Assembly (NCBI RefSeq): GCF_036826855.1
Contig: NZ_CP104578.1
Location: forward strand, 7,498,501 to 7,562,500
Length of the DNA: 64,000 nucleotides
Source of the DNA: Streptomyces sp. SJL17-4
GTDB taxonomy: Bacteria; Actinomycetota; Actinomycetes; Streptomycetales; Streptomycetaceae
Direction: 5' to 3'
Position numbers and translations under genes: made by a program. Below are positions 52,499 to 63,779 of this stretch, in pieces. The notes under the pieces are model-generated. The model was not told the DNA's origin and did not search any database. It saw nothing but the letters and a program-made list of their open reading frames with translations. How positions within the stretch are numbered: position 1 is the stretch's first letter; every line of letters starts with the position of its first letter.

Positions 52499-53866
52499 TC
52501 AGGCCCCGGCGGCCGCGCGCCGGATCGCGTCGAGCGTGCGCGCCACATCGTCGTCGGTGGTCGACCAGTTGCTCACCGAGATCCGCATGACGCGTCTGCC
52601 GTGCCAGGTGGAGCCGCTGATCCACGCCGTGCCGTCGTCGAGCAGCCGGGCGAGTACCCGGTCGGTGCGCGCGTCGCTGCCGAACTCGGCGCAGACCTGC
52701 GTGAACGCGACCTCGTTGAGAACGGTCGCGCCGTCGATCCCGGCGATGCCGGCGGCGAACGCGGAGGCGTGGCGACACAGCCGCTCGACGAGGTCGGAGA
52801 CGCCTGATCGGCCGAGGGACCTGAGGGCGGCCCATACGGTGAACGCTCTGCCGCGCCGCGAGAGTTCGGGCACCTTGTCGATGGGGTCGCCGTGCTCGTG
52901 CTGGATGAGGTAGTCGCCCCGCTGGCCCATCGCCGCCCGGACCGCGGACGCGTCGCGCACGATCGCGAGTCCGCAGTCGTAGGGGACGTTCAACGTCTTG
53001 TGGGCGTCCGTCGCCCAGGAGTCCGCGTCCGCGCAGCCCGCCGTCAGGTGGGCGTAGCGCGGCGAGGCGGCTGCCCACAGTCCGAACGCGCCGTCGACAT
53101 GGACCCAGGCGTCTGCCTCGCGCGCCGCACGGATGCTCGCGGCGAAGGGATCGAAGGCGCCGGAATGTATGTCGCCGGCCTGGAGGATCACGATCGTGGG
53201 GCTCTGTCCGCCGGCCGTCAGCGCCTTCCGCAGGGCCTCGGGCTCGATGCGTCCTTGATCGTCTGCCGTCACCAGGTCGGGCCGACCGAGCCCGAGGTAG
53301 CGCAAGGCCAGGTCGATGGCCATGTGTCGGGACTCGCCGGCGACCACACGCACGTGCGGGCCACCCGTGAGGCCGTCGCGGGCGACGTTCCAGCCGGTGC
53401 GCCGCAGCACCGTGTCCCGCCCGGCTGCGAGGCACGTGAAGTTCGCCATCGTCGCACCCGTGGTGAAGCCTACGGAGCTGTCCCTCGGCAGGCCGAGCAG
53501 ATCGAGCAACCAGGCGCCGGCGACCTCCTCCGCAGCCGCGTACGCGGGCGATACGGTGCGCATCACACAATTCTGGTCCCAGGCGCTGACCAGCCAGTCG
53601 GCAGCCAGCGCGGCCGGCTCGGTGCCGCCCACCACGAACCCGTAGAAGCGGCCGCTGGGGAACGCGGTGAGCCCCGGCTCACAGGCCGTGGCCAGCAGAT
53701 CGACGACGTCGGCGGGCGTCCCGGGGCCGACAGGCAGTTCGGCACCGAGCGCGCTCACGATCTCGTCGACCGAAGCGCGGGCGGGGATCCGGCGGTCGGA
53801 CAGGCTCGCCAGCCACCGGACAGCATGGTCGTACGCCTGTCGGAGCGCAGCCTCACGCGCGTCCAT
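52499..53866 (-). CDS. PLP-dependent (group II / DDC-like) decarboxylase
   Basis: A 455-residue fold-type I PLP enzyme. The PLP lysine is in SWATDAHKTLNVPYDCGLAIV; FTTGATMANFTCLAAGRD is the phosphate/ring-binding region; WVHVDGAFGLWAAASP contains the conserved Asp/His-type PLP contacts. The sequence matches the pyridoxal-dependent decarboxylase family (aromatic-L-amino-acid/glutamate-decarboxylase-like), with uncertain substrate. ATG 53866. It is the last gene of the envelope operon, 65 bp after the Trm112-like gene. It could make an amine that decorates the glycan, but this is inference. Confidence 0.85.
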   Translation of the reverse strand: MDAREAALRQAYDHAVRWLASLSDRRIPARASVDEIVSALGAELPVGPGTPADVVDLLATACEPGLTAFPSGRFYGFVVGGTEPAALAADWLVSAWDQNCVMRTVSPAYAAAEEVAGAWLLDLLGLPRDSSVGFTTGATMANFTCLAAGRDTVLRRTGWNVARDGLTGGPHVRVVAGESRHMAIDLALRYLGLGRPDLVTADDQGRIEPEALRKALTAGGQSPTIVILQAGDIHSGAFDPFAASIRAAREADAWVHVDGAFGLWAAASPRYAHLTAGCADADSWATDAHKTLNVPYDCGLAIVRDASAVRAAMGQRGDYLIQHEHGDPIDKVPELSRRGRAFTVWAALRSLGRSGVSDLVERLCRHASAFAAGIAGIDGATVLNEVAFTQVCAEFGSDARTDRVLARLLDDGTAWISGSTWHGRRVMRISVSNWSTTDDDVARTLDAIRRAAAGA

Positions 53867-53931
53867 ACCTCGGACTATGCGACCGTCGCCGCCGCCCCGC
53901 AAGCCGACCGCGGTCGGCCGGCAGGAGTGGC

Positions 53932-54138
53932 TCACACCGCGTGTTCGCTCCCGGCGGCGGGTTCCTCGGAGACGGCGATCACACCGGAGGAGGGAAGCAG
54001 TTGCGGGATGCCGTCGACGATCGGGTAGCGCCGGCGCAGGCGCGGGTTGTAGAGCGCGCCCTCGATCTCGTCCAGGATCAACGGCCCCTTGTCGAGCGGA
54101 CAGGCGAGGATCTTCAGCAGCGGGCTGTCGGGCTTCAT
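53932..54138 (-). CDS. Trm112 family protein
   Basis: A 68-residue Trm112/UPF0434-type protein: KILACPLDKGPLILDEIEGALYNPRLRRRYPIVDGIPQLLP. The second CxxC pair of zinc-binding members is replaced by YNPRLRRRYPI, a form I recall from actinobacterial homologues. Trm112 is a partner that stabilises methyltransferases; the neighbouring methyltransferase at 55044 is an attractive client. Start ATG 54138 overlaps the EamA gene stop by four bases. Confidence 0.88.
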   Translation of the reverse strand: MKPDSPLLKILACPLDKGPLILDEIEGALYNPRLRRRYPIVDGIPQLLPSSGVIAVSEEPAAGSEHAV

Positions 54139-55040
54139 GACCGGGTTCCTTCGGGAGTGGGGGTGTTCGTCTCGTGTCGCGGCAGGGTGAGCAGGACCGT
54201 CAGTGCCAGTACGGTGCCGCCGAGACGCAGTAACAGCCGCAACGGGTCGTCGGGCAGCGGCTCGTCGAACGCGATCGTGCCGCTCACGATGGAGAACACG
54301 CAGCTCACCGTCGAACACACCGGGACGATCAGGGACGCCCGGCAGCGCTGCAGGGCGGTCTGCGACAGCACCAGTCCGCTGACGCCTGTCAGCAGCAGGA
54401 GGTACGGGTACGGGGAGGCCAGCACGGCGGGCACGGAGCCCATGAGGTCCTCGGTGTCCAGGTGCCCGGAGACGCCCTTGATCGCGAGCGAGCTGACGCC
54501 GTAGATCAGACCGACGGCGACCGCGTAGGCCACCCCGGTGGTCGGCTGCCGATGCCGTCGGCGGGCACGCCGCTCCGCGGCCGCGTAGAGCACGAGACCG
54601 GCCGCGAGGGTCGGCAGGCACAGGGTCAGCAGGATTCCGGTGGGAGCGGTACGGCTGATCTCCTCGCTGGTCTCGTACAGCGAGGCCACCACCATCACGA
54701 GCGCCAGACCGATGACGGCCACCGCACGCCGCTCGCGGCCGGAGGGCCGCTCGCCGAGAACCACCGACGAGAGCACGAGGAGGAGGACGAGACCGGACAG
54801 GAACAGACCCTGGGCGGCGGCGATCGGCAGGGTGCGGTAGACGGCCAGCTGCGCGGCGAACCCGAGGGCGAGCGCCACGGCCCCGCAGATCCACAAGGGC
54901 CGGCCGGCCAGCAGCAGGAGGGCCCGGCCCGGCTGTGCGGCGCTCAACGGCGGCATGCCGGCCAGCGCCCGCTTCTCCAGGACGAAGCCGGTGCTGTACA
55001 GGACGTTCGCCACCAGCGCGGCGGCCACACCCCACACCAC
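54135..55040 (-). CDS. EamA/DMT superfamily-like membrane protein
   Basis: A 301-residue protein with about ten helices in two repeats (VWGVAAALVANVLYSTGFVLEKRAL; AAAQGLFLSGLVLLLVLSSVVLGERPS; then a second set from VAYAVAVGLIYGVSSLAIKG to LLLRLGGTVLALTVLLTLP). The pattern and the conserved ALxxxG/LxGE(R/P) features fit the drug/metabolite transporter (EamA, DUF-type) superfamily. GTG 55040, three bases after the methyltransferase stop; 3' end overlaps the Trm112 gene. In this operon it may flip or export a lipid-linked sugar or its precursor. Confidence 0.82.
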   Translation of the reverse strand: MVWGVAAALVANVLYSTGFVLEKRALAGMPPLSAAQPGRALLLLAGRPLWICGAVALALGFAAQLAVYRTLPIAAAQGLFLSGLVLLLVLSSVVLGERPSGRERRAVAVIGLALVMVVASLYETSEEISRTAPTGILLTLCLPTLAAGLVLYAAAERRARRRHRQPTTGVAYAVAVGLIYGVSSLAIKGVSGHLDTEDLMGSVPAVLASPYPYLLLLTGVSGLVLSQTALQRCRASLIVPVCSTVSCVFSIVSGTIAFDEPLPDDPLRLLLRLGGTVLALTVLLTLPRHETNTPTPEGTRS

Positions 55041-55043
55041 GGG

Positions 55044-55940
55044 CTACACCTTTCTCGCATGCACGAGGAGAATGGAGGCGAGCGACGGCGCCCCGCAGGC
55101 CAGCCGGTCCAGCGGCCGGAGCGGGCGCGGGACTCCGTGGAACGGCGCGCCGGCGAGCTTCACCACCTCGAACCCGGACGCGGCCACGAACTCGCGCAAC
55201 GCGCGTGCCGTGTACAGCCGCAGATGGCCCACGACCTCGCTGCCCGGCCTGCCGTGGATGCGCCGCAGACTCACCTCGGAGAACACCGGCTGGACTCCGG
55301 CGAGCAGCAGCGCGCGGTTGTACCAGGCGCCGAGATTCGGCGTGGAGAGCATGAGATGCCCGCCGGGGCGCAGGACCCTGCGCAGTTCGTCGAGGGCGCT
55401 GTCGGGGTCGACGAGGTGCTCGACGACCTCGCTGAACAGGACGGCGTCGGCACTGCCGGAGGCGAACGGCAGCCCGCTGCCGGTCAGCTCGCCGCGGACG
55501 ACCTGGCTCAGGCGCGGGGCCGCCCGGCGCAGGGCGTCCTGCGACCAGTCGATCCCCACGACGCGGTGCCCGCCGAGCACGCGGGCCGCGATCGCGCCCG
55601 CCGAACCGTCCCCGCAGCCCACGTCGAGCACGGTCGCGGCCGGGCGGCCGGGCCCCACGGGGCCGAGCGCGTCGGCCAGCATCCGGGCCTGCCGCAGTGT
55701 CCGGGCCTCCCCGGAGGCGACGGGAACGGTGGGGTTCTCGTAGAAGTCCCGCAGCCCGGGGGCGCGCGGGGCCGACGAAGTCGCCTCCGTCGCGGGCGAC
55801 TTATCGACCACTTCCGAGTCGGCAACTCCCGACTCGGCTTCCGAGTCGGCTACTTCCGAGTCGGCAACTTCCAGGTCGGCTACTTCCGAGTCGGCTGCTT
55901 CCGGGTCGGTGGCTGCCGAGACGTTGGCTGAGGTGGTCAT
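55044..55940 (-). CDS. Class I SAM methyltransferase with acidic repeat N-terminus
   Basis: A 298-residue methyltransferase: motif I TVLDVGCGDGSAGAIAARVLGG (about 102-123), VVGIDWSQDALRRA, motif IV DAVLFSEVVEHLVDPDSALDELRRVLRPGGHLMLSTPN, a UbiE/Coq5-like order. The first about 50 residues are unusual: repeated DSEVAD/SEVAE units rich in Asp and Glu, encoded by 15-bp DNA repeats. ATG 55940 overlaps the acyltransferase stop by four bases. Likely methylates a sugar, quinone or lipid made by the operon. Confidence 0.88.
   Translation of the reverse strand: MTTSANVSAATDPEAADSEVADLEVADSEVADSEAESGVADSEVVDKSPATEATSSAPRAPGLRDFYENPTVPVASGEARTLRQARMLADALGPVGPGRPAATVLDVGCGDGSAGAIAARVLGGHRVVGIDWSQDALRRAAPRLSQVVRGELTGSGLPFASGSADAVLFSEVVEHLVDPDSALDELRRVLRPGGHLMLSTPNLGAWYNRALLLAGVQPVFSEVSLRRIHGRPGSEVVGHLRLYTARALREFVAASGFEVVKLAGAPFHGVPRPLRPLDRLACGAPSLASILLVHARKV
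55811..55912. repeat. 15-bp repeat array in the methyltransferase gene
   Basis: Seven units of roughly CTTCCGAGTCGGCTA on the plus strand (55811-55912, one unit 12 bp), encoding the acidic N-terminal tail of the methyltransferase on the minus strand. Directly visible; likely slippage-prone. Confidence 0.88.
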
Positions 55941-57403
55941 GACGGCCTCTTGTGGTTGTCCTGGGTGGAGCGGGTTCCCACCGGCGTCGTGTCCGGACGC
56001 GGTGTGTCGTCCCCGGCCTGACCGAGAGACGTCGTCGACAGCGACTCCGCGAACAGGCCCGCCAGTTCCGTGCCTGCCGCGTCACCGAGCAGCGCCCGCG
56101 ACCAGCGCAACGTCACATGCAGTCGCCCGCCGGTGGAAGCCGCCGCCAAGCTCAGTCCCCGCGGCATCCGCGCCGGTGCGGAGAACCACACGGCCGTCGC
56201 CCGGCCCGCGTCGCCGAAGTCCAGCGCGTACGGCACGCGTCCGAGGTTGGTGACCAGCGCCGTCGACGTCCAGGACGCCGCCGCCCGCCGTGCGCCGCGG
56301 GTGAGCACGCCCCGTGCGCCGACCGGCAGCAGGGGTGCGGTCAGCAGGCTCGCCCCGGCGCCCATAGGGGCGCCCTGTGCCGACTTCAGCGCGCGGGTGC
56401 GCCGTGCGGTGGTGCGCAGCAGCCGGGCCACGGCCTCCGGATCAGGCCGCTCACCGAGCAGCCGCTCCGTGTCGCGCGGGTCCTCGGAGGTCATGGCCAC
56501 CTCGACGAGCCGGGTTCCGTTGCCCATCGGCATGTCCGTGCCGCGTGGACGGTCGTCCACGGGCATCGTGAGCCGTACCGGACCGGCCGGCCGGCCCCGC
56601 GAGACGTTCCAGCGCCCCACCATCAGTGAGGTGGCGACAAGGAGTTGGTCGTTGACGGTCCAGGGCGGGAGGCCTCCGTCTCGCGCCGCACGCCGCGGAA
56701 TGGGCAGTTCCGCCTGGACCATGCCGTTGCCCACGGCACGCGCGCGTACCGGCCCGGGGCGGGAGTCCGGCGCGACCCGTACGGGCCGCGCCCGCACGGT
56801 GCGGCCGGTGGCGCCGGTCCCGCTCGGAGCCGGGCCCGAGCGCTCCGGCCGGACCCGCCCGGGAACCGGGAGGGCTGCCGTACCGCCGTACTGTTCGGCG
56901 GTCGTGGCGAGCACCCGCAGCCCCGACCCGGCGTCGAGAGCGGTGTGATGCAACGTCAGCAGCAGCACGGTCCCGCTCTCTTCCACCTGGACGACATCCA
57001 GGCGCATCGGCGGCGCCAGGGAGAGCGGCGGGCATTCCGTCAGGGCGCGGGCCCGGGCCCGCGCCAAGGCGTCGGGTCCCGGCCCGGCGAAACTCACCGG
57101 ATCACTGTCCGGTCGACCGGTCAGCTCCCACGCGAAGGACCGCCGATGTCCACGTCCGGGCACTTCTCGTGCCAGCACCCGGGGGTGTGTGAGGAGGGCC
57201 TGCTGGAACGCGGCCCGCAGCCGTACCGGGTCCAGCCCGCCGGGCAGATGGACCTCGATGTGTACGGTCTCCGGTTCGTCGTCGCTGAGGCAGTGCCGCG
57301 ACACCTCGTCGACGGTCGGAAAGGGAATCCGGACCCTGCCGGGAGGGCCCCCGAGATTCTCGGGGGTGGTCCCCGTACCCGCCGCGGTGCACGGCTCGGT
57401 CAC
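55937..57403 (-). CDS. Condensation-domain/PapA-like acyltransferase
   Basis: A 488-residue protein of the CoA-dependent acyltransferase (condensation, PapA) fold. The catalytic motif HHTALDAGS (His152, His153, Asp157) fits HHxxxDG with Ala for Gly. VRLTMPVDDRPRGTDMPMGNGTR resembles the second-half (F)R/xD latch region of PapA and C-domains. Such enzymes acylate hydroxyls of glycolipids in mycobacteria. The gene overlaps its neighbours by four bases on both sides (57400-57403 and 55937-55940). Acyl donor and acceptor are unknown; the context suggests the glycan product of the operon. Confidence 0.82.
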   Translation of the reverse strand: MTEPCTAAGTGTTPENLGGPPGRVRIPFPTVDEVSRHCLSDDEPETVHIEVHLPGGLDPVRLRAAFQQALLTHPRVLAREVPGRGHRRSFAWELTGRPDSDPVSFAGPGPDALARARARALTECPPLSLAPPMRLDVVQVEESGTVLLLTLHHTALDAGSGLRVLATTAEQYGGTAALPVPGRVRPERSGPAPSGTGATGRTVRARPVRVAPDSRPGPVRARAVGNGMVQAELPIPRRAARDGGLPPWTVNDQLLVATSLMVGRWNVSRGRPAGPVRLTMPVDDRPRGTDMPMGNGTRLVEVAMTSEDPRDTERLLGERPDPEAVARLLRTTARRTRALKSAQGAPMGAGASLLTAPLLPVGARGVLTRGARRAAASWTSTALVTNLGRVPYALDFGDAGRATAVWFSAPARMPRGLSLAAASTGGRLHVTLRWSRALLGDAAGTELAGLFAESLSTTSLGQAGDDTPRPDTTPVGTRSTQDNHKRPS

Positions 57404-60400
57404 GAGGGGCCACCGCCGTCCGGCCGCCAGAGGGGCTGCTCCGGCCGGTGCCCGTCGCCGGTGCTTCGCGGCCTGGCCGAGACCACCGGTCCGGCTTCCG
57501 GCGCGGCGGAACCGCCGTCGCCTTCATGCCCGTCGCCGTCTGCCCATCCGTCGTCACCTCCGTGCCGGTCGCCGTCCCCGCGCCCGGCGGCGGCCGTCGG
57601 CCGTACCGCCGTCACCAGCGCGGCAGACAGGGCCACCAGCGTGAGCACCTGCGCCAAGCCGCTGAACGCGCCGGTCCCGTCGGCGACCGGATCCCCGGCG
57701 CCCAGGGCCGCGACGAGTCCGGCGCCGCCCATCGCCACCGCCGCTGTCGGGACCAGCACACCCGGCCTGAATCGCGCCGCCACGGCGAGTACGGGCACGA
57801 CCAGGGCCAGCGGCCCCGCCGCCACCGCGACGACCGCGGTCAGCACCAGCGTTCCGAGCAGCATCCCCGGGGCCGCCGGTTCGGGCAGCTTCTCGTCGGT
57901 GCCACCGTCGTCGCGCCGACGGCCCACGAAGGCCAGGGCGGCCAGGGCGACGAGCGCGAGCGCACCGCCGGCCAGGGCCGTCCGGTACGAACCGGAGGGC
58001 TCGAACTCCATGGTCACCGTGCCGGAGGCGCCGGCCGGGATCACCCAGGCCTGCTGCCAGCCGTCGAGGCGCACCGGCTCGAGCTCCGTGCCGTCCAGGG
58101 TGGCCTTCCAGCCGTCGTTGGCGTTCTCGTAGGTCCGCAGGTAGGCGGCCTCGCCCGCGCCCGCCGACACCGAGACGGTCCGGCTGTCGTCGGCCCACCT
58201 GGTGACGGTGGCCTCGCGGCCCGCCGCTCCGTCCATGGCCCGCGGGGTGCCGCGGGTCAGCGTGACGTCGGTGATCGCCAGCGGGCCCGCGTCACTCGCC
58301 TCCACCTCGTGGTCGCCGGACGGGAGCTCCAGGGTGCCGTCCTTCTCCTCGCCCGCGCAGAGGGTGACGGTGACGGGGCGCCGCTCGGTGAGGTCCCGGA
58401 CGAGCCCGGAGGCCTTCGTCTTGTGCAGGACACCGCCCACGGCGAGGTCAGGACCCTCACCGCACGGCAGCGAGAAGCGGGCGGACGACTTCGGCCGCGG
58501 CACCCGCAGGTCGGCAAGGGCGGGAACGTGCACCTCGCTCAGCCCGACGGGCAGTTGCAGCTGCGCGTCCGCCACCGGGTTGTGAACGGTGAGCGGCGCG
58601 ACCCTGGTGAGGGAGATGTCGAGCCGGTTCGTCTCGATCGCCGGGAAGCGGACCCGCCCGTTCTCGTCCACGTCGGCCACCGCGGCGCCGTGCGGGGAGC
58701 TGATCATCACCTGCTCGGGCCGGGTGGACACCCCGCCCGCCGGCGCGAGGATGATCTCGTCGATCTTCTTCATCGAGGGCCAGCTCAGGTGGACGACCGG
58801 CCGGTCGCCGGCGATCCAGGCGGTCGTCAGATCGCCGTCGACCAGGTTGCGGGCGCCGAGTGAGGTGCCGTTGCGGCTGGTGGAATCCACGGCGGCGGTC
58901 AGCCGGTTCTTCGATCCGGGGGCCGAGCGGTCGAGCAGTCGGTCCAGCGCGCCGCCGGGTACGGCGACGGCTCGCGCGGACACCTCGTACTCGCCCGACT
59001 CCTCGGTGCTGAACCGCCGGTGCAGTCCCACCTCGGCCGAGGCGGGCGACAGGCCGCCTGCGTCGGTACCGCGGTGCAGGGAGTACACGGTCGCCTCCGC
59101 GTCGGTGTTCTCCGCGTCGGCGGGCAGCTCCAGCAGGCGCGTCACCTGCACGTCCGGGATCGACACCTCGGAGAATCCGGCGCCGGAGAGTCCCGGGCGC
59201 GCCTGCTGAGCGGCAAGGACGGTGATCTTCATCCAGGAGGCCTCACCGGCGGGGGCCTTGACGGTCTGCGGCAGGCCGTCCGTCCGCAGGGGGCTGTCGG
59301 CCGAGCCGCGGTCGGTCTCGATCCGCACCTGGGTGGGCGCCGCGCGCATGGCGTCGCCCGGCAGGGGCGTCAGCTGGATCGAGGCCGGGATGTCGGTCGG
59401 CCGGGAGAAGTCCACCCGGAGCCACTGTCCGACCGGCTCGCCGGGGCTGCCCTCGGCCCACGCGGTGTCCGGGTTGCCGTCGAAGGCGTTCACCGGGTCG
59501 TACTGCGGCAGGTGGAACAGCCAGTTGCCGCTGCTGGAGGCCGTCACGGCCTGGGCGCCGCGCAGCATCGCCGTCGTCTGGTGACCGGTGCCCTCCGACG
59601 GCAGGATCTGCTTGGGCTCCTCGCCCGGGTTCTGCAGGCTGCCGGAGTGATTGCGCTCGTCCGCGGTGTAGGTGTACGAGGTGTTGTTGTTGACCAGGCC
59701 GAACCGGGTGTCGGCCCGGCGCAGTCCGTCCGCGACCGCCTTCACCGGTGCCACGACGCCCTTGGGAAGGGTGTCCCCCGCCAGTACGGCCGGACGGCCG
59801 GTCATCGAGGGATCGGCGGACAGCTGGAGCAGCGCCTCGGGTCCGCCACTGACCACGGCCGTGTCGGCCACGGCCGAGACGCCGACCCTGCCGGGCCTCC
59901 CGGCGTCCTGCGGCTGGTAGATCTCCACGGCCTGGAGCCGCGGGTAGAGCCCCTGGACCTGGAGCGGGGTGCCGGCGGCGATGCGCCCGCCGGTCACCAG
60001 CGGGCCGAATCCGGTGACCTTGCGGTAGCCGGACGACTCCAGGGTCCGCTTCACCGTCTGCGGCGGGACGTAGCCGATCTGGTCGGGGTCGAGGTCGTTG
60101 CGGACGACCACCTCGTGCATGCCGGCCCGGGCAAGGTACGCCCGGAGGCCCCGGACCTCGGCGCCGGACAGCAGCGCCTGCTCGACGGCGTCCGTCATAC
60201 GGCGTGCTCCGGGGGTGCCGAAGGGGACGAAGTCGCGCTGTGCCCAGGGGGTCTCGGCCAGCACGTCGAACGGCTGGTCGATGGGGGAACCCCAGGTGTA
60301 GATGCCGTGCGCGGTCGCGGGGACGACCAGGGCCCGGCTGTCCCGGGCATGGTCCTTGAGCCAGCCGGCGGCCTGCTCCCAGTGGGTGGGCAGCTTGGTG

Positions 60401-61716
60401 AACGCTCCGGGCTGGAGGATCGAGCCGTTGACGTACGGGAGCGCCAGACCGGGCAGGACGAGCACGGCCGCGGCCGCGGGCACCCAGCGGCGACCGCGGA
60501 GTGCGTGAGAGCCTCTGCTCTCGGACAGCACGGCCGTCAGATGGGCGAGTCCGAGGACGAGCGCGAGGGCCAGTCCCGGCTGGAACTTGTAGATGTTGCG
60601 GAACGGCTTCAACGGCCCGTTCAGCCAGTCCTGGACGGCGCCGTGGAAGGGACCGCCGAAGGATCCGGCGTACCCGGCGAGCGCGATCAGGACGACGGCC
60701 AGGACGGTCAGGAGCAGCCACCGGCGCTCCGGCAGGTCCCGCCGTGCCAGGCCGGCGAGGCCGAGCGCCGCGGCGAACGCCGAGCCGAGGACGGTGACGA
60801 CGGAGGTCGCGACGGTCCAGCCGGCGGGCAGCCACGCCTCACCGAAGTTCAGGTAGGCCACCCAGTTGCCGGCGCCGCGCAGCAGCTCGGTCGCGGACAT
60901 GGTGGCGGTGGTGGTGTCGGCCTGCTCGACGTACGGCATGAAGTTCTCGCCGTACGCGCCCAGCAGGAGCAGCGGCACCACCCACCACACGGTGGCGAGG
61001 AAGACGCCCGGGATCCACCAGCCGAGCAGCGCGCGCCGGCGCCGGCCGGGCGGGCGGCTGAGGAGGTAGAGGCCCACGGGCAGCAGCGCGGCCAGTGTCG
61101 AGGCGGCGTTCACGCCGCCCATGAAGGGGATCAGCAGGGCCGACCGTGCGGCGGCCTTCCGGGGGCTGTACGCCGCGGAGGTCAGCGGCAGCAGCACCCA
61201 GGGCAGCAGGGCACCGGGCAGCGCGGCGGCGGAGGTCGAGCCGATGACGATCGTGAAGGTGGGCCACAGCGCGTAGGCCACGGCGCCGAGGACCCGGGTC
61301 GCGGGCGTCCCCACGCGCAGCCGCTCGGCGAGCCGGAGCGCGCCCCAGAACGCGGCGGTCACGATGGCCGAGAGCCAGAGCCGTTCGGCCAGCCAGACCG
61401 GCACCTGCAGCAGGTCCATGAGCCCGTAGTAGGGGAGTGCCGGGAAGGCGTAGCCGACGTACTGGTTGGCTATGCCGCCGAGGCCGACGTTCCCGTTCCA
61501 CAGCGAACCGAGGTCGCCGAGGAAGCGCCAGGGGTCGAGGGCGACGCCGAGTTTGGTCTCGAACGTCATCTTCCCCGGTGACACCGCGAGGAACGCCACC
61601 AGGACGAGGGCCCAGAAAGCGAACAGCAGGCGGCGTCCGCGCGGTTCGCCGGACGCCTCCGCCGGCGTCGGGCCGGGCTGCGGCACCCGGGTGGGCGCCT
61701 GGACCGTAGTGGTCAT
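57400..61716 (-). CDS. AftD-like alpha-(1->3)-arabinofuranosyltransferase family (GT-C, DUF3367) protein
   Basis: A 1438-residue membrane enzyme. N-terminal GT-C region with about 12 helices (SPGKMTFETKLGVALDPWRFL, with the acidic loop at about 50-65, VALDPWRFLGDLGSLWNGN), then a large extracytoplasmic part with two discoidin/F5-8-type modules (about 715-845 and 935-1050; VNAFDGNPDTAWAEG and NLVDGDLTTAWIAGDRPVVHLSW), and C-terminal helices (about 1240-1390). In mycobacteria AftD adds arabinofuranose to arabinogalactan and lipoarabinomannan; Streptomyces lacks canonical arabinogalactan, so the product here is unknown. ATG 61716. Last bases overlap the acyltransferase gene. Confidence 0.88.
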   Translation of the reverse strand: MTTTVQAPTRVPQPGPTPAEASGEPRGRRLLFAFWALVLVAFLAVSPGKMTFETKLGVALDPWRFLGDLGSLWNGNVGLGGIANQYVGYAFPALPYYGLMDLLQVPVWLAERLWLSAIVTAAFWGALRLAERLRVGTPATRVLGAVAYALWPTFTIVIGSTSAAALPGALLPWVLLPLTSAAYSPRKAAARSALLIPFMGGVNAASTLAALLPVGLYLLSRPPGRRRRALLGWWIPGVFLATVWWVVPLLLLGAYGENFMPYVEQADTTTATMSATELLRGAGNWVAYLNFGEAWLPAGWTVATSVVTVLGSAFAAALGLAGLARRDLPERRWLLLTVLAVVLIALAGYAGSFGGPFHGAVQDWLNGPLKPFRNIYKFQPGLALALVLGLAHLTAVLSESRGSHALRGRRWVPAAAAVLVLPGLALPYVNGSILQPGAFTKLPTHWEQAAGWLKDHARDSRALVVPATAHGIYTWGSPIDQPFDVLAETPWAQRDFVPFGTPGARRMTDAVEQALLSGAEVRGLRAYLARAGMHEVVVRNDLDPDQIGYVPPQTVKRTLESSGYRKVTGFGPLVTGGRIAAGTPLQVQGLYPRLQAVEIYQPQDAGRPGRVGVSAVADTAVVSGGPEALLQLSADPSMTGRPAVLAGDTLPKGVVAPVKAVADGLRRADTRFGLVNNNTSYTYTADERNHSGSLQNPGEEPKQILPSEGTGHQTTAMLRGAQAVTASSSGNWLFHLPQYDPVNAFDGNPDTAWAEGSPGEPVGQWLRVDFSRPTDIPASIQLTPLPGDAMRAAPTQVRIETDRGSADSPLRTDGLPQTVKAPAGEASWMKITVLAAQQARPGLSGAGFSEVSIPDVQVTRLLELPADAENTDAEATVYSLHRGTDAGGLSPASAEVGLHRRFSTEESGEYEVSARAVAVPGGALDRLLDRSAPGSKNRLTAAVDSTSRNGTSLGARNLVDGDLTTAWIAGDRPVVHLSWPSMKKIDEIILAPAGGVSTRPEQVMISSPHGAAVADVDENGRVRFPAIETNRLDISLTRVAPLTVHNPVADAQLQLPVGLSEVHVPALADLRVPRPKSSARFSLPCGEGPDLAVGGVLHKTKASGLVRDLTERRPVTVTLCAGEEKDGTLELPSGDHEVEASDAGPLAITDVTLTRGTPRAMDGAAGREATVTRWADDSRTVSVSAGAGEAAYLRTYENANDGWKATLDGTELEPVRLDGWQQAWVIPAGASGTVTMEFEPSGSYRTALAGGALALVALAALAFVGRRRDDGGTDEKLPEPAAPGMLLGTLVLTAVVAVAAGPLALVVPVLAVAARFRPGVLVPTAAVAMGGAGLVAALGAGDPVADGTGAFSGLAQVLTLVALSAALVTAVRPTAAAGRGDGDRHGGDDGWADGDGHEGDGGSAAPEAGPVVSARPRSTGDGHRPEQPLWRPDGGGPS

Positions 61717-61738
61717 GACCGTTCCTCGCTTCGCATGC

Positions 61739-62560
61739 TCATGGGCTTCGCCTGAGAATCAGCAGCAGATTCCAGGTGGCGATCTCGCGGAGTCCCGGCA
61801 CCCGGGTGATCGTGCTCGCGAGGAACGGCCAGTAGCGTGACCGCGCTGTCACGACCTGCACGTCGTCGCGACCGCGGACGTGCCGCAGGGTGGAACCGAT
61901 GTGGACGGGGAAGAGGTTCTCCCCGAGCGTGTGCTTGGCCGCGCGGCCGGTGCGGCGTTCGTAGCGCGCGCGGGCCCGCTCCGCCCCGAGGTAGTGCCAC
62001 GGCGCGGTCTCGTGACCTCCCCAGGGCGAGAGCCAGTTGGTGAACGACAGGTAGATCAGCCCGCCGGGGCGGGTGACCCGCGCCATCTCGCTGATGAACG
62101 TCTGCGGATCCGACACGTGCTCGAGCACGTTGGACGAGAAGCACACGTCCGCGACGCCGTCGGCGAGCGGCAGCAGGTACCCGTCGGCGAGGACCGCGTC
62201 CTCGGTGGTACGGCCGCGGGCGTTCAGCTCCCGCGGGTCGGGCTCGAAGAGGTAGCTCTGCGCGCCCCGGCGGCGGAACTCCTCGGTGAAGTGTCCGCTG
62301 CCGCCGCCGACGTCGACGACGATCTTGCCGGCCAGATCGACATGGCGTGCCACCTGGGCGACCGAGTCACGGGCCAACAGGGTGTAGCACCGCTCGGGGT
62401 CGCTGGGTTCGCGCATGAACGCCCGGAAGAGGGCGGCCGACCGCCTCAACGACGGGTCCTTGAAGCCGTGTTCGGCGGTGCCCGCCGACGGGTTCTCGAA
62501 GCCGTGTGCGGTGTCGTCGGCCGATGGAGCTCCGGGCTCGCGCTCGGTGGTCTCAGTCAT
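61739..62560 (-). CDS. Class I SAM methyltransferase, Rv0224c-like
   Basis: A 273-residue methyltransferase: motif I IVVDVGGGSGHFTEEF, acidic partner YLFEPDPRELNARG, motif IV SSNVLEHVSDPQTFISEMARVTRPGGLIYLSFTNWLSPWGGHETAPWHYLGAERA. The motifs GGxSGHFTEEF, SFTNWLSPWGGHE and the C-terminal LREIATWNLLLILRR are characteristic of mycobacterial Rv0224c, which lies in the aftD neighbourhood there. ATG 62560 (AGGAG) overlaps the GT4 gene end by eight bases. Substrate not known; probably a sugar or lipid of the envelope. Confidence 0.86.
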   Translation of the reverse strand: MTETTEREPGAPSADDTAHGFENPSAGTAEHGFKDPSLRRSAALFRAFMREPSDPERCYTLLARDSVAQVARHVDLAGKIVVDVGGGSGHFTEEFRRRGAQSYLFEPDPRELNARGRTTEDAVLADGYLLPLADGVADVCFSSNVLEHVSDPQTFISEMARVTRPGGLIYLSFTNWLSPWGGHETAPWHYLGAERARARYERRTGRAAKHTLGENLFPVHIGSTLRHVRGRDDVQVVTARSRYWPFLASTITRVPGLREIATWNLLLILRRSP

Positions 62561-63779
62561 GGACACTCCTGCCGCGTCCGGGGACCGCGGTGCGGGCCAC
62601 GGCCTCGGCGGCGACCGCCTGGAACTGACGGACCGTCGCGCTCCAGCGGAAGCGCTTGGCGCGCAGCACCGCGGCACGCCCCATGGCCGCGCGCCGGTCG
62701 GCACTGAGGGACAGGGCGCACCACGCGGCGGCGAACGAACTCTCGCCCCGGGCGAGCACGCCGGTCTCCCCGTCCTCGACGGAGTCGCGCAGGCCGGGGA
62801 TGTCGAATCCGATCGCGGGGGTGGCCCGCGCGGCCGCCTCGGTGACGACCAGGCCCCAGCCCTCGACGAGGGAGGGGTGCAGGAGCAGCCACGCCTCGCA
62901 CATCAGCCGGTGCTTCTCGGCTTCCGACACCCTGCCGGCGAACGTCACGGAGGGGCCGGCCATGGCTTCGAGCCGCTCCCGTTCGGGGCCGTCGCCCACG
63001 ATGACGAGCCGGCCGCCGGTGACGGGGCGCACCCGCTCCCACAGCCGCAGGAGCAGGTCGACGCGCTTGTACTCCACCAGCCGGCCGACGGCCAAGAACA
63101 ACGGTTCCCTCGCCTCGGGCAGCAGGGGGGCGGGCTCTTCGACGCCGTTGTTGACGATCCGGATGCGGTCCGGTGCCACGCCGATGGCGCGCAGCTCGGC
63201 GGCGGTCGACTCGGAGACGGCCACCATCAGGTTGTCGCGATGGGTGCCGGCCAGTGCCCAGTGCTCCAGTCTGCGTCCGAGCCGTGCCGCCGGGCCCGGG
63301 TAGCGCATCTGCCAGAGATCGGTGTGTACGTGGTTGACCAGGCACAACGTGGGCCCGCGGTGCCACAGCGGTGCGAGGTACGGCATGCCGTTGCACACTT
63401 CGACCAGCAGGTCGCAGTCGCCGACCTCACGGGCGAAGGTCGACCTGGCATGCAGGAAGTGACTCGCGTCGCCTCCCGCGGAGACCACCCGGTAGTCGCG
63501 TGCGGCGGCCGGACCTCCGCACACGAGCGTGACGTCGTGGCCGTCGGCGGTCAGACCGTCGGCTATCCGGTCGATGAGCAGTTCCGATCCGCCGGCGGCC
63601 CGGTTGGCCAGGTCGCGGCGGGCGAGGAAGGTGATCCGACGCGGCGCGGCCGTCACGGGGGACGCGGCGTGCGGATCGAGGGCGAGCGAGTCGGTGACGT
63701 GGCTGCCGGTGCGTGCTTGAGCGGGGACGGAAGGGGAGTCCTCCTGGCCGGGGGCCAGGGCGGACGAGCGCTGGGGCAT
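62553..63779 (-). CDS. Family 4 glycosyltransferase (first gene of the envelope operon)
   Basis: A 408-residue GT-B glycosyltransferase: N-terminal RRDLANRAAGGSELLIDRIADGLTADGHDVTLVCGG, LCLVNHVHTDLWQMRYPG, and a C-terminal GT4 domain (FLAVGRLVEYKRVDLLLRLWERVRPVTGGRLVIVGDGPER, EGWGLVVTEAAARATPAIGF with the EX7E-type nucleotide-sugar site). Start ATG 63779, with the preceding 150 bp repetitive. It is the upstream gene of the minus-strand operon and resembles Rv0225 of the mycobacterial aftD region. Adds one sugar on the cytoplasmic side; donor unknown. Confidence 0.87.
   Translation of the reverse strand: MPQRSSALAPGQEDSPSVPAQARTGSHVTDSLALDPHAASPVTAAPRRITFLARRDLANRAAGGSELLIDRIADGLTADGHDVTLVCGGPAAARDYRVVSAGGDASHFLHARSTFAREVGDCDLLVEVCNGMPYLAPLWHRGPTLCLVNHVHTDLWQMRYPGPAARLGRRLEHWALAGTHRDNLMVAVSESTAAELRAIGVAPDRIRIVNNGVEEPAPLLPEAREPLFLAVGRLVEYKRVDLLLRLWERVRPVTGGRLVIVGDGPERERLEAMAGPSVTFAGRVSEAEKHRLMCEAWLLLHPSLVEGWGLVVTEAAARATPAIGFDIPGLRDSVEDGETGVLARGESSFAAAWCALSLSADRRAAMGRAAVLRAKRFRWSATVRQFQAVAAEAVARTAVPGRGRSVHD

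Follow-up and report, generated by a model that had tools for sequence, protein, structure and literature searches.

A conserved AftD gene block in Streptomyces and its probable place in an envelope-glycolipid module

Genes of the AftD block

We analysed a stretch of 64,000 nt (the window), positions 7,498,501-7,562,500 of the forward strand of contig NZ_CP104578.1 from Streptomyces sp. SJL17-4. All eight open reading frames of a proposed operon were found on the minus strand at 52499..63779, and the third-position GC content of each lies between 0.85 and 0.93. The GT4-family glycosyltransferase (62553..63779, minus strand) matches PF13692 with 95 bits and additionally PF00534 and PF13439, and its ATG start at 63779 is preceded by GGAG. 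It is followed by the class I SAM methyltransferase MT1 (61739..62560, minus strand; PF08241, 71 bits). Within the Corynebacterineae locus, GT4 is presumably a relative of Rv0225/cg3166 and MT1 a relative of MtrP/Rv0224c.

The central gene encodes an AftD-family GT-C glycosyltransferase of 1438 aa with C-terminal carbohydrate-binding modules (57400..61716, minus strand). Its GT-C domain gave a full-length match to PF11847 over residues 38-693 (737 bits, cut-off 26); the modules behind it match PF24607, CBM_AftD (45 bits, cut-off 27) and F5/8 type C (42 bits, cut-off 28), and the comparison with PDB 6w98 yielded an E value of 9e-137. Using reading frames chosen by tblastn guidance, we found the acidic residues [DE]53-T-K and E264 conserved in 41/41 sequences. 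AftD is reported to be the alpha-1,5-arabinofuranosyltransferase of mycobacterial arabinogalactan (PMC6034362). The Streptomyces protein resembles it in the full-length family match, the carbohydrate-binding modules and the conserved acidic residues. In contrast, it is only 31-33% identical to four AftDs of family f4, which is probably Mycobacteriaceae because of its emb genes and gene order, and in this strain it carries E instead of D at position 53; it is a predicted glycosyltransferase only.

Downstream of AftD lies an HHxxxD-type acyltransferase (55937..57403, minus strand), which was found to have the condensation-domain fold. H153 and D157 are invariant in 23/23 sequences, and the first H of the motif varies. 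A TmaT-like assignment of this HHxxxD condensation-fold enzyme was not supported. The second class I SAM methyltransferase, MT2 (55044..55940, minus strand; PF13489, 77 bits), precedes a membrane transporter of the DMT superfamily (54135..55040, minus strand), which is NIPA/EamA-like and a candidate flippase. The sequence-only reading had called this transporter EamA-type; Mg_trans_NIPA (PF05653) fits better with 43.1 bits (cut-off 26.2) than EamA with 24.3 bits, which is under the cut-off of 28.2. The last conserved gene encodes a small Trm112-like protein (53932..54138, minus strand; PF03966, 56 bits), a candidate partner of MT2. Adjacent to it, and outside the conserved block, is a PLP-dependent decarboxylase (52499..53935, minus strand; PF00282, 133 bits).

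The tight spacing of the eight co-directional genes, as claimed beforehand, was confirmed. With the start codons chosen in this analysis, on which the junction lengths depend, GT4 and MT1 overlap by 8 nt, MT1 and AftD are separated by 22 nt, AftD and the acyltransferase as well as the acyltransferase and MT2 overlap by 4 nt, MT2 and the transporter are 3 nt apart, and the transporter overlaps Trm112 by 4 nt; Trm112 and the decarboxylase overlap by 4 nt if the latter starts at GTG 53935.

The first gene of the conserved unit lies one gene further upstream, beyond the window: a homologue of PgfA/LmcA at about 64143-65099 in window numbering. The unit ends at Trm112. Thus, the proposed eight-gene unit is correct as a tight, AftD-centred block, but both ends were misdrawn: PgfA was missed and the decarboxylase is extra. 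The distance from PgfA to GT4 is 363 nt, and a scan for promoters and terminators gave nothing above chance level, with no promoter signal standing out, which together counts against assuming one transcript. The PgfA homologue belongs to the PF11271/NF053601 family (NF053601 equivalog, 289 bits, cut-off 160). A model of the S. exfoliatus orthologue (pLDDT 87.5) matches the LmcA crystal structures 7shw/7n3v with an E value of 5e-18, and its superposition on 7shw_A gave a TM score of 0.82 (on target) with an rmsd of 2.8. The protein thus belongs to the family of LmcA/PgfA (MSMEG_0317, NCgl2760), and the modelled orthologue has the same barrel fold. Its identity to the solved LmcA is about 20%, and most AftD-positive Streptomyces genomes hold a second family member elsewhere.

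Conservation of the gene order

The order PgfA/LmcA-GT4-MT1-AftD-HHxxxD acyltransferase-MT2-DMT transporter-Trm112 was retained in 35/49 other Streptomyces AftD loci; 12 of the remaining loci are interrupted by contig ends and 2 lack the transporter alone. A set of 68 named Streptomyces loci, which shares species with the 49 and is not independent of them, comprises 54 complete loci, 12 that are cut, 1 without the DMT gene and 1 that is complete and additionally has decarboxylase fragments. The same order is kept in Embleya. No match to the transporter was found in loci L053, L166 and L229. Conservation across Streptomyces, named beforehand as a check on the operon, was thus upheld for seven of the eight genes, and an agreement of this extent in 35/49 loci is more than chance; it failed for the decarboxylase, which was detected in 0/49 loci. 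Among the 68 named loci, two fragments of this gene occur in 1 locus only, and it was consequently rejected as a member of the block.

AftD itself is present in 47/121 Streptomyces genomes, about two in five of those sampled, and MT2 is co-inherited with it (45/47 AftD-positive versus 1/74 AftD-negative genomes). Outside the 49 loci, a second, weak PF11847 match (31.7 bits) was seen in genome G337. In other families, GT4, MT1, AftD and PgfA occur together in 11/20 loci. That GT4, the methyltransferase and AftD are related to genes of the mycobacterial locus, as had been proposed, was borne out by locus L058 of family f4, in which adjoining genes for a GT4 (32% identical) and an MT1 (44% identical) lie near AftD.

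The best-known counterpart is the aftD/tmaT/lmcA/mmpA/mtrP locus of Corynebacterineae (cg3161-cg3168; Rv0224c-Rv0236c), which likewise groups AftD, LmcA/PgfA, a glycosyltransferase and an MtrP-like methyltransferase. Neither TmaT nor MmpA was detected among the part of the neighbouring open reading frames of the Streptomyces block that was scanned; the block has instead the HHxxxD acyltransferase, the second methyltransferase, the DMT transporter and Trm112. Streptomyces is not known to make mycolates. In Corynebacterineae, LmcA is reported to act on LM/LAM and MtrP on the export of trehalose lipids (PMC8972800, PMC8698533).

Genes for an arabinose donor

The genome of this strain encodes DprE1 (NF053785, 615 bits, cut-off 500) and DprE2 (NF053786, 365 bits, cut-off 250), both located elsewhere and away from the AftD block. 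Of the pathway UbiA-phosphatase-DprE1-DprE2 to polyprenyl-phosphoryl-arabinofuranose (DPA), these two proteins are thus present above their curated cut-offs. The strain departs from the pathway in that its own UbiA (decaprenyl-phosphate phosphoribosyltransferase) is encoded elsewhere and is divergent, its best match of 177.6 bits being below the curated cut-off of 234, and in that there is no Emb for DPA to serve. The UbiA/phosphatase pair is missing beside dprE1 in this genome; UbiA, phosphatase, DprE1 and DprE2 are together in 7/10 other Streptomyces DprE1/DprE2 loci examined, and UbiA of genome G333 passes with 417 bits (cut-off 207).

EmbABC (PF04602) was found in none of 8 AftD-positive Streptomyces genomes (this strain and 7 others), and Emb is missing from 28/30 genomes searched. 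An Emb-type arabinan system was accordingly rejected for these 8 Streptomyces, which also sets them apart from the Corynebacterineae locus. The statement that Streptomyces makes no canonical arabinogalactan has to be qualified in view of dprE1 and dprE2.

Within Streptomyces, DprE1 was detected in 37/47 AftD-positive versus 29/74 AftD-negative genomes, a dprE1 fragment in G249 being scored as absent (odds ratio 5.7; p 3e-5, a value that ignores shared descent). Strong UbiA matches, defined as E 1e-80 or better with weaker ones including that of this strain scored as absent, occur in 27/47 versus 18/74. A general rule that AftD requires DprE1 was rejected, since DprE1 is missing from 10/47 AftD-positive Streptomyces and from 60/112 AftD-positive genomes of the class sample. 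In families f18 and f19, none of the 19 and 14 AftD-positive genomes, respectively, has DprE1; it is present in all 19 of f4 and in 17/19 of f17. In the f19 loci L059 and L060, AftD is accompanied by GT4, MT1 and PgfA although DprE1 was not found in this family.

Proposed function and alternative explanations

We regard the block, with a probability of about 0.6, as an actinobacterial module for envelope glycolipids in the version found in Streptomyces; the best-known version is aftD/tmaT/lmcA/mtrP of mycobacteria and corynebacteria. The order of steps and the substrates that we infer are the following. A cytoplasmic GT4 would begin a glycolipid, which MT1 and MT2, the latter aided by the Trm112-like protein, may methylate and the HHxxxD acyltransferase may acylate at the cytoplasmic side. 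The DMT protein could act as the flippase for this glycolipid or for a polyprenyl-phosphate sugar. Outside, AftD would lengthen the glycan from a polyprenyl-phosphate sugar, and the membrane-anchored PgfA/LmcA with its external lipid-binding barrel might take up the lipid or pass it on.

In this strain and in most AftD-bearing Streptomyces, the donor for AftD would most likely be DPA, with arabinose as a putative constituent of the product. As the block and the DprE genes are both present in most carriers, their surface may bear an as yet undescribed glycan with arabinose, acyl and methyl groups. Among the matches listed in literature searches (titles and beginnings of abstracts) for AftD, arabinan, arabinofuranosyltransferase or DprE1 with Streptomyces, these genes were not treated. 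Our wider proposal, which we hold only tentatively and at somewhat below even odds, is that about two in five Streptomyces species carry an undescribed envelope lipoglycan that contains D-arabinofuranose as well as O-acyl and O-methyl substituents, and that AftD would assemble from DPA with no Emb enzymes involved. The mycobacterial aftD/lmcA/mtrP locus would then be one branch of an older, pre-mycolate glycolipid-export module, and branches of the E53 type or without DprE1 would have replaced the arabinose donor or done without it from the start. The absence of Emb, the sub-cut-off UbiA of this strain and the AftD-positive genomes without DprE1 speak against an arabinose product.

In the strongest alternative, which we consider unlikely, the operon would serve the same kind of envelope glycan, but AftD would use another polyprenyl-phosphate sugar and the product would be free of arabinose. 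Polyprenol phosphate mannose, for example, is reported as a known donor in Streptomyces (PMC5882110). AftD, GT4, MT1 and PgfA persist in families in which DprE1 was not found, and 9/10 AftDs from AftD-positive Streptomyces lacking DprE1 have E, not D, at position 53, a residue that is, however, confounded with the AftD clade. The co-occurrence with DprE1 would then reflect shared ancestry only, and it is this association in Streptomyces, together with the DprE1 content of f4 and f17, that argues against the alternative.

If the arabinose reading is true, an arabinose-bearing glycan would be added to an envelope for which lipoteichoic acid is the macroamphiphile known so far. The macroamphiphile isolated from S. 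hygroscopicus and S. coelicolor is reported to be lipoteichoic acid and not a lipoglycan (PMC3196553), which counts against the envelope-glycolipid proposal as far as these strains may carry the operon. The arabinose reading, if true, would also allow a test of whether the donor, or rather acceptor and partner proteins, defines the AftD family. Mycobacterial LmcA/PgfA orthologues are reported as essential, which hampers their study; the harmless and genetically tractable Streptomyces would then allow GT4, the MtrP-like methyltransferase, LmcA/PgfA and AftD to be studied jointly.

A specialised-metabolite cluster is improbable. In such a cluster, the acyltransferase would be a condensation enzyme like those of NRPSs, and a small glycosylated, methylated molecule would be made instead of an envelope polymer. 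The condensation fold and the patchy presence in the genus (47/121) are compatible with this reading, but NRPS, PKS and carrier-protein domains were not found in the part of the neighbouring open reading frames that was scanned, the order is kept over named Streptomyces loci and Embleya, and AftD and PgfA are envelope families. The suggestion that an eight-gene operon including the decarboxylase makes an amine-bearing acylated glycan has the overlap of the GTG start with the Trm112 stop in its favour, but nothing else points that way, and with the gene absent from all 49 loci and present as fragments in 1/68 it falls as highly improbable. In near relatives, the DNA similarity stops at or shortly before the Trm112 stop codon, and in two of them (L172 and L183) other genes come after Trm112.

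Extent and conservation of the gene block

The sequence-only reading described eight genes on the minus strand of the window, and this observation is sound. In reading order they encode GT4 (62553-63779), the class I SAM methyltransferase MT1 (61739-62560), AftD (57400-61716), an acyltransferase of the HHxxxD type (55937-57403), a second methyltransferase, MT2 (55044-55940), a NIPA/EamA-like DMT transporter (54135-55040), a Trm112-like protein (53932-54138) and a PLP decarboxylase (52499-53935). Neighbouring genes overlap by up to 8 nt or are separated by up to 22 nt, and GC at third positions is 0.85-0.93 in all eight. The host genome is a single contig of 8.54 Mb. The interpretation of these genes as one operon for a possibly amine-bearing acylated glycan was only partly right: the AftD-centred block with a conserved order was confirmed, but the unit had been misdrawn at both ends.

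At the upstream end a PgfA/LmcA gene adjoins GT4 on the same minus strand, beyond the window end (64143 to about 65099 in window numbering; listed span L003:143-1249, equal to 64143-65249). Its product matches the NCBIfam model PgfA with 289 bits (cut-off 160) and Pfam PorA/DUF3068 with 242 bits. The predicted structure of the S. exfoliatus PgfA orthologue (mean pLDDT 87.5) has its best solved matches in LmcA from M. smegmatis (7shw and 7n3v, 20% identical; E 5e-18 and a target TM of 0.82). Upstream of PgfA follow a large AAA/LuxR regulator (L003:3551-5953) and a 2OG-Fe dioxygenase (PF10014; L003:7645-8535).

At the downstream end the PLP decarboxylase has to be removed from the operon. It was present in none of 49 other Streptomyces AftD loci, and among 68 named loci it was seen in a single one (L181), as two fragments. 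The DNA similarity with the near relatives shown stops at, or just short of, the stop codon of Trm112; among these relatives additional patches of similarity occur beyond this point only in loci L181 and L191, and different genes follow Trm112 in L172 and L183.

AftD was found in 47 of 121 Streptomyces genomes. The 49 loci comprise the AftD matches from the other 46 of these genomes, a weak second match in genome G337 being excluded. The sequence-only reading had proposed to examine the gene order across Streptomyces; leaving the decarboxylase aside, the full order PgfA-GT4-MT1-AftD-acyltransferase-MT2-DMT-Trm112 is present in 35 of the 49 loci. Twelve are interrupted by contig or stretch ends and keep the order in the genes still visible, and two lack the DMT gene but are otherwise complete. 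The named loci (67 from Streptomyces and one from Embleya scabrispora) gave 54 complete, 12 cut, one without DMT and one complete with the decarboxylase fragments; closest to the AftD locus of the window are those of Streptomyces griseoluteus (97%) and, at 96% each, S. exfoliatus and Streptomyces sp. CB02980, which places the window in this genus. A genome-wide search detected MT2 in 45/47 genomes with AftD versus 1/74 without, the three exceptions being assemblies in 800 to 1770 contigs. At least two PorA/PgfA matches are listed in 44/47 versus 3/74 (the second is weak in G291). The locus order and these co-occurrences with AftD therefore indicate that the block behaves as a unit.

A further PorA/PgfA-family gene lies outside the operon (L241:8917-9933; G000:C1:6485931-6486830), and many Streptomyces genomes without AftD also hold single genes of this family. 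Three genomes contain a second AftD operon, with both copies complete in G343 and G293 and both contig-cut in G246; the second AftD copies (L052, L165 and L170) cluster with the AftD of the window. In the region G337:C1:5649511-5657340 a second MT2 (81% identical) is located about 6 kb from the weak AftD match (31.7 bits), perhaps the remains of a decayed second operon.

Relation to the Corynebacterineae module

The GT4-MT1-AftD-PgfA core predates Streptomyces. All four genes were found within 20 kb in 11 of 20 AftD loci of other families of the class (f17, f19, f26, f32, f33, f34 and f38); of the remaining nine, four contain three core genes, four contain two and one contains AftD alone. In locus L058 of family f4, inferred to be Mycobacteriaceae, GT4 (32%) adjoins MT1 (44%) with AftD nearby. 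The Streptomyces AftDs form a single group separate from the 20 other-family sequences (FastTree, midpoint root). In many genomes of f18, f9, f26 and f33 PF11847 also has a weaker second match, which may be related to the membrane half of AftD in the manner of MmpA.

PMC6034362 describes AftD as an alpha-1,5-arabinofuranosyltransferase and its locus as conserved across Corynebacteriales. The C. glutamicum locus is reported to run from AftD (cg3161) to MtrP (cg3168) and to include TmaT (cg3163), a putative glycosyltransferase (cg3166) and, between these, two membrane proteins (PMC7775120). In this organism, according to PMC8698533 and PMC8972800, full LM/LAM requires NCgl2760 (LmcA), and acetylated trehalose mycolate depends on TmaT, MtrP and MmpA, as does its export. 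The Streptomyces block is an eight-gene form of the same aftD/lmcA/mtrP module. This form and its association with DPA genes are new; among the literature matches listed, none deals with either.

Proposed function and sugar donor

We propose, with a probability of about 0.6, that the block belongs to this type of envelope glycolipid module and that its usual donor is polyprenyl-phosphoryl-arabinofuranose (DPA). GT4 would begin a glycolipid in the cytoplasm, methylation and acylation would follow, the DMT protein may flip the product, AftD would extend it at the outer face from a polyprenyl-phosphate sugar and PgfA would handle the lipid.

For arabinose speak DprE1 (615 bits, cut-off 500; E 1e-111 to solved DprE1 structures) and DprE2 (365 bits, cut-off 250) in the genome of the window. 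DprE1 occurs in 37/47 Streptomyces genomes with AftD versus 29/74 without (121 genomes; odds ratio 5.7, p 3e-5), and strong UbiA matches in 27/47 versus 18/74. In seven of ten other Streptomyces loci examined UbiA, a PAP2 phosphatase, DprE1 and DprE2 are clustered (G057, G333, G271, G284, G254, G340 and G347); G252 and G259 show DprE1-DprE2 only. The set is located near trpS-like and glyA-like genes (L132:6954-10733; counterparts in L131 and L134-L138). G249, a Streptomyces without AftD, has dprE1 in pieces next to dprE2 (L140:8644-10130).

The same envelope glycolipid module supplied by a donor other than DPA is the less likely reading. Several results argue against arabinose. EmbABC was missing in 14/14 Streptomyces and 14/14 other non-f4 genomes of 30 tested, the UbiA candidate of the window's genome stays below its curated cut-off (177.6 vs 234), and ten Streptomyces genomes with AftD lack DprE1. 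In a sample of the class 60 of 112 AftD genomes lack DprE1, including 19/19 of f18 and 14/14 of f19; both genes are present in 19/19 of f4 and 17/19 of f17. The macroamphiphile from S. hygroscopicus and S. coelicolor is described as lipoteichoic acid (PMC3196553).

At position 53 of AftD, where an acidic residue precedes T-K, 30 sequences from Streptomyces genomes with DprE1 carry D and 10 carry E; for genomes without DprE1 the figures are 1 and 9 (Fisher p 3e-4). This position tracks the AftD clades and is therefore a lead, not a test. The AftDs of other families carry D in 19 of 20 cases, and the AftD of the window has E (61558-61560) in a genome with DprE1.
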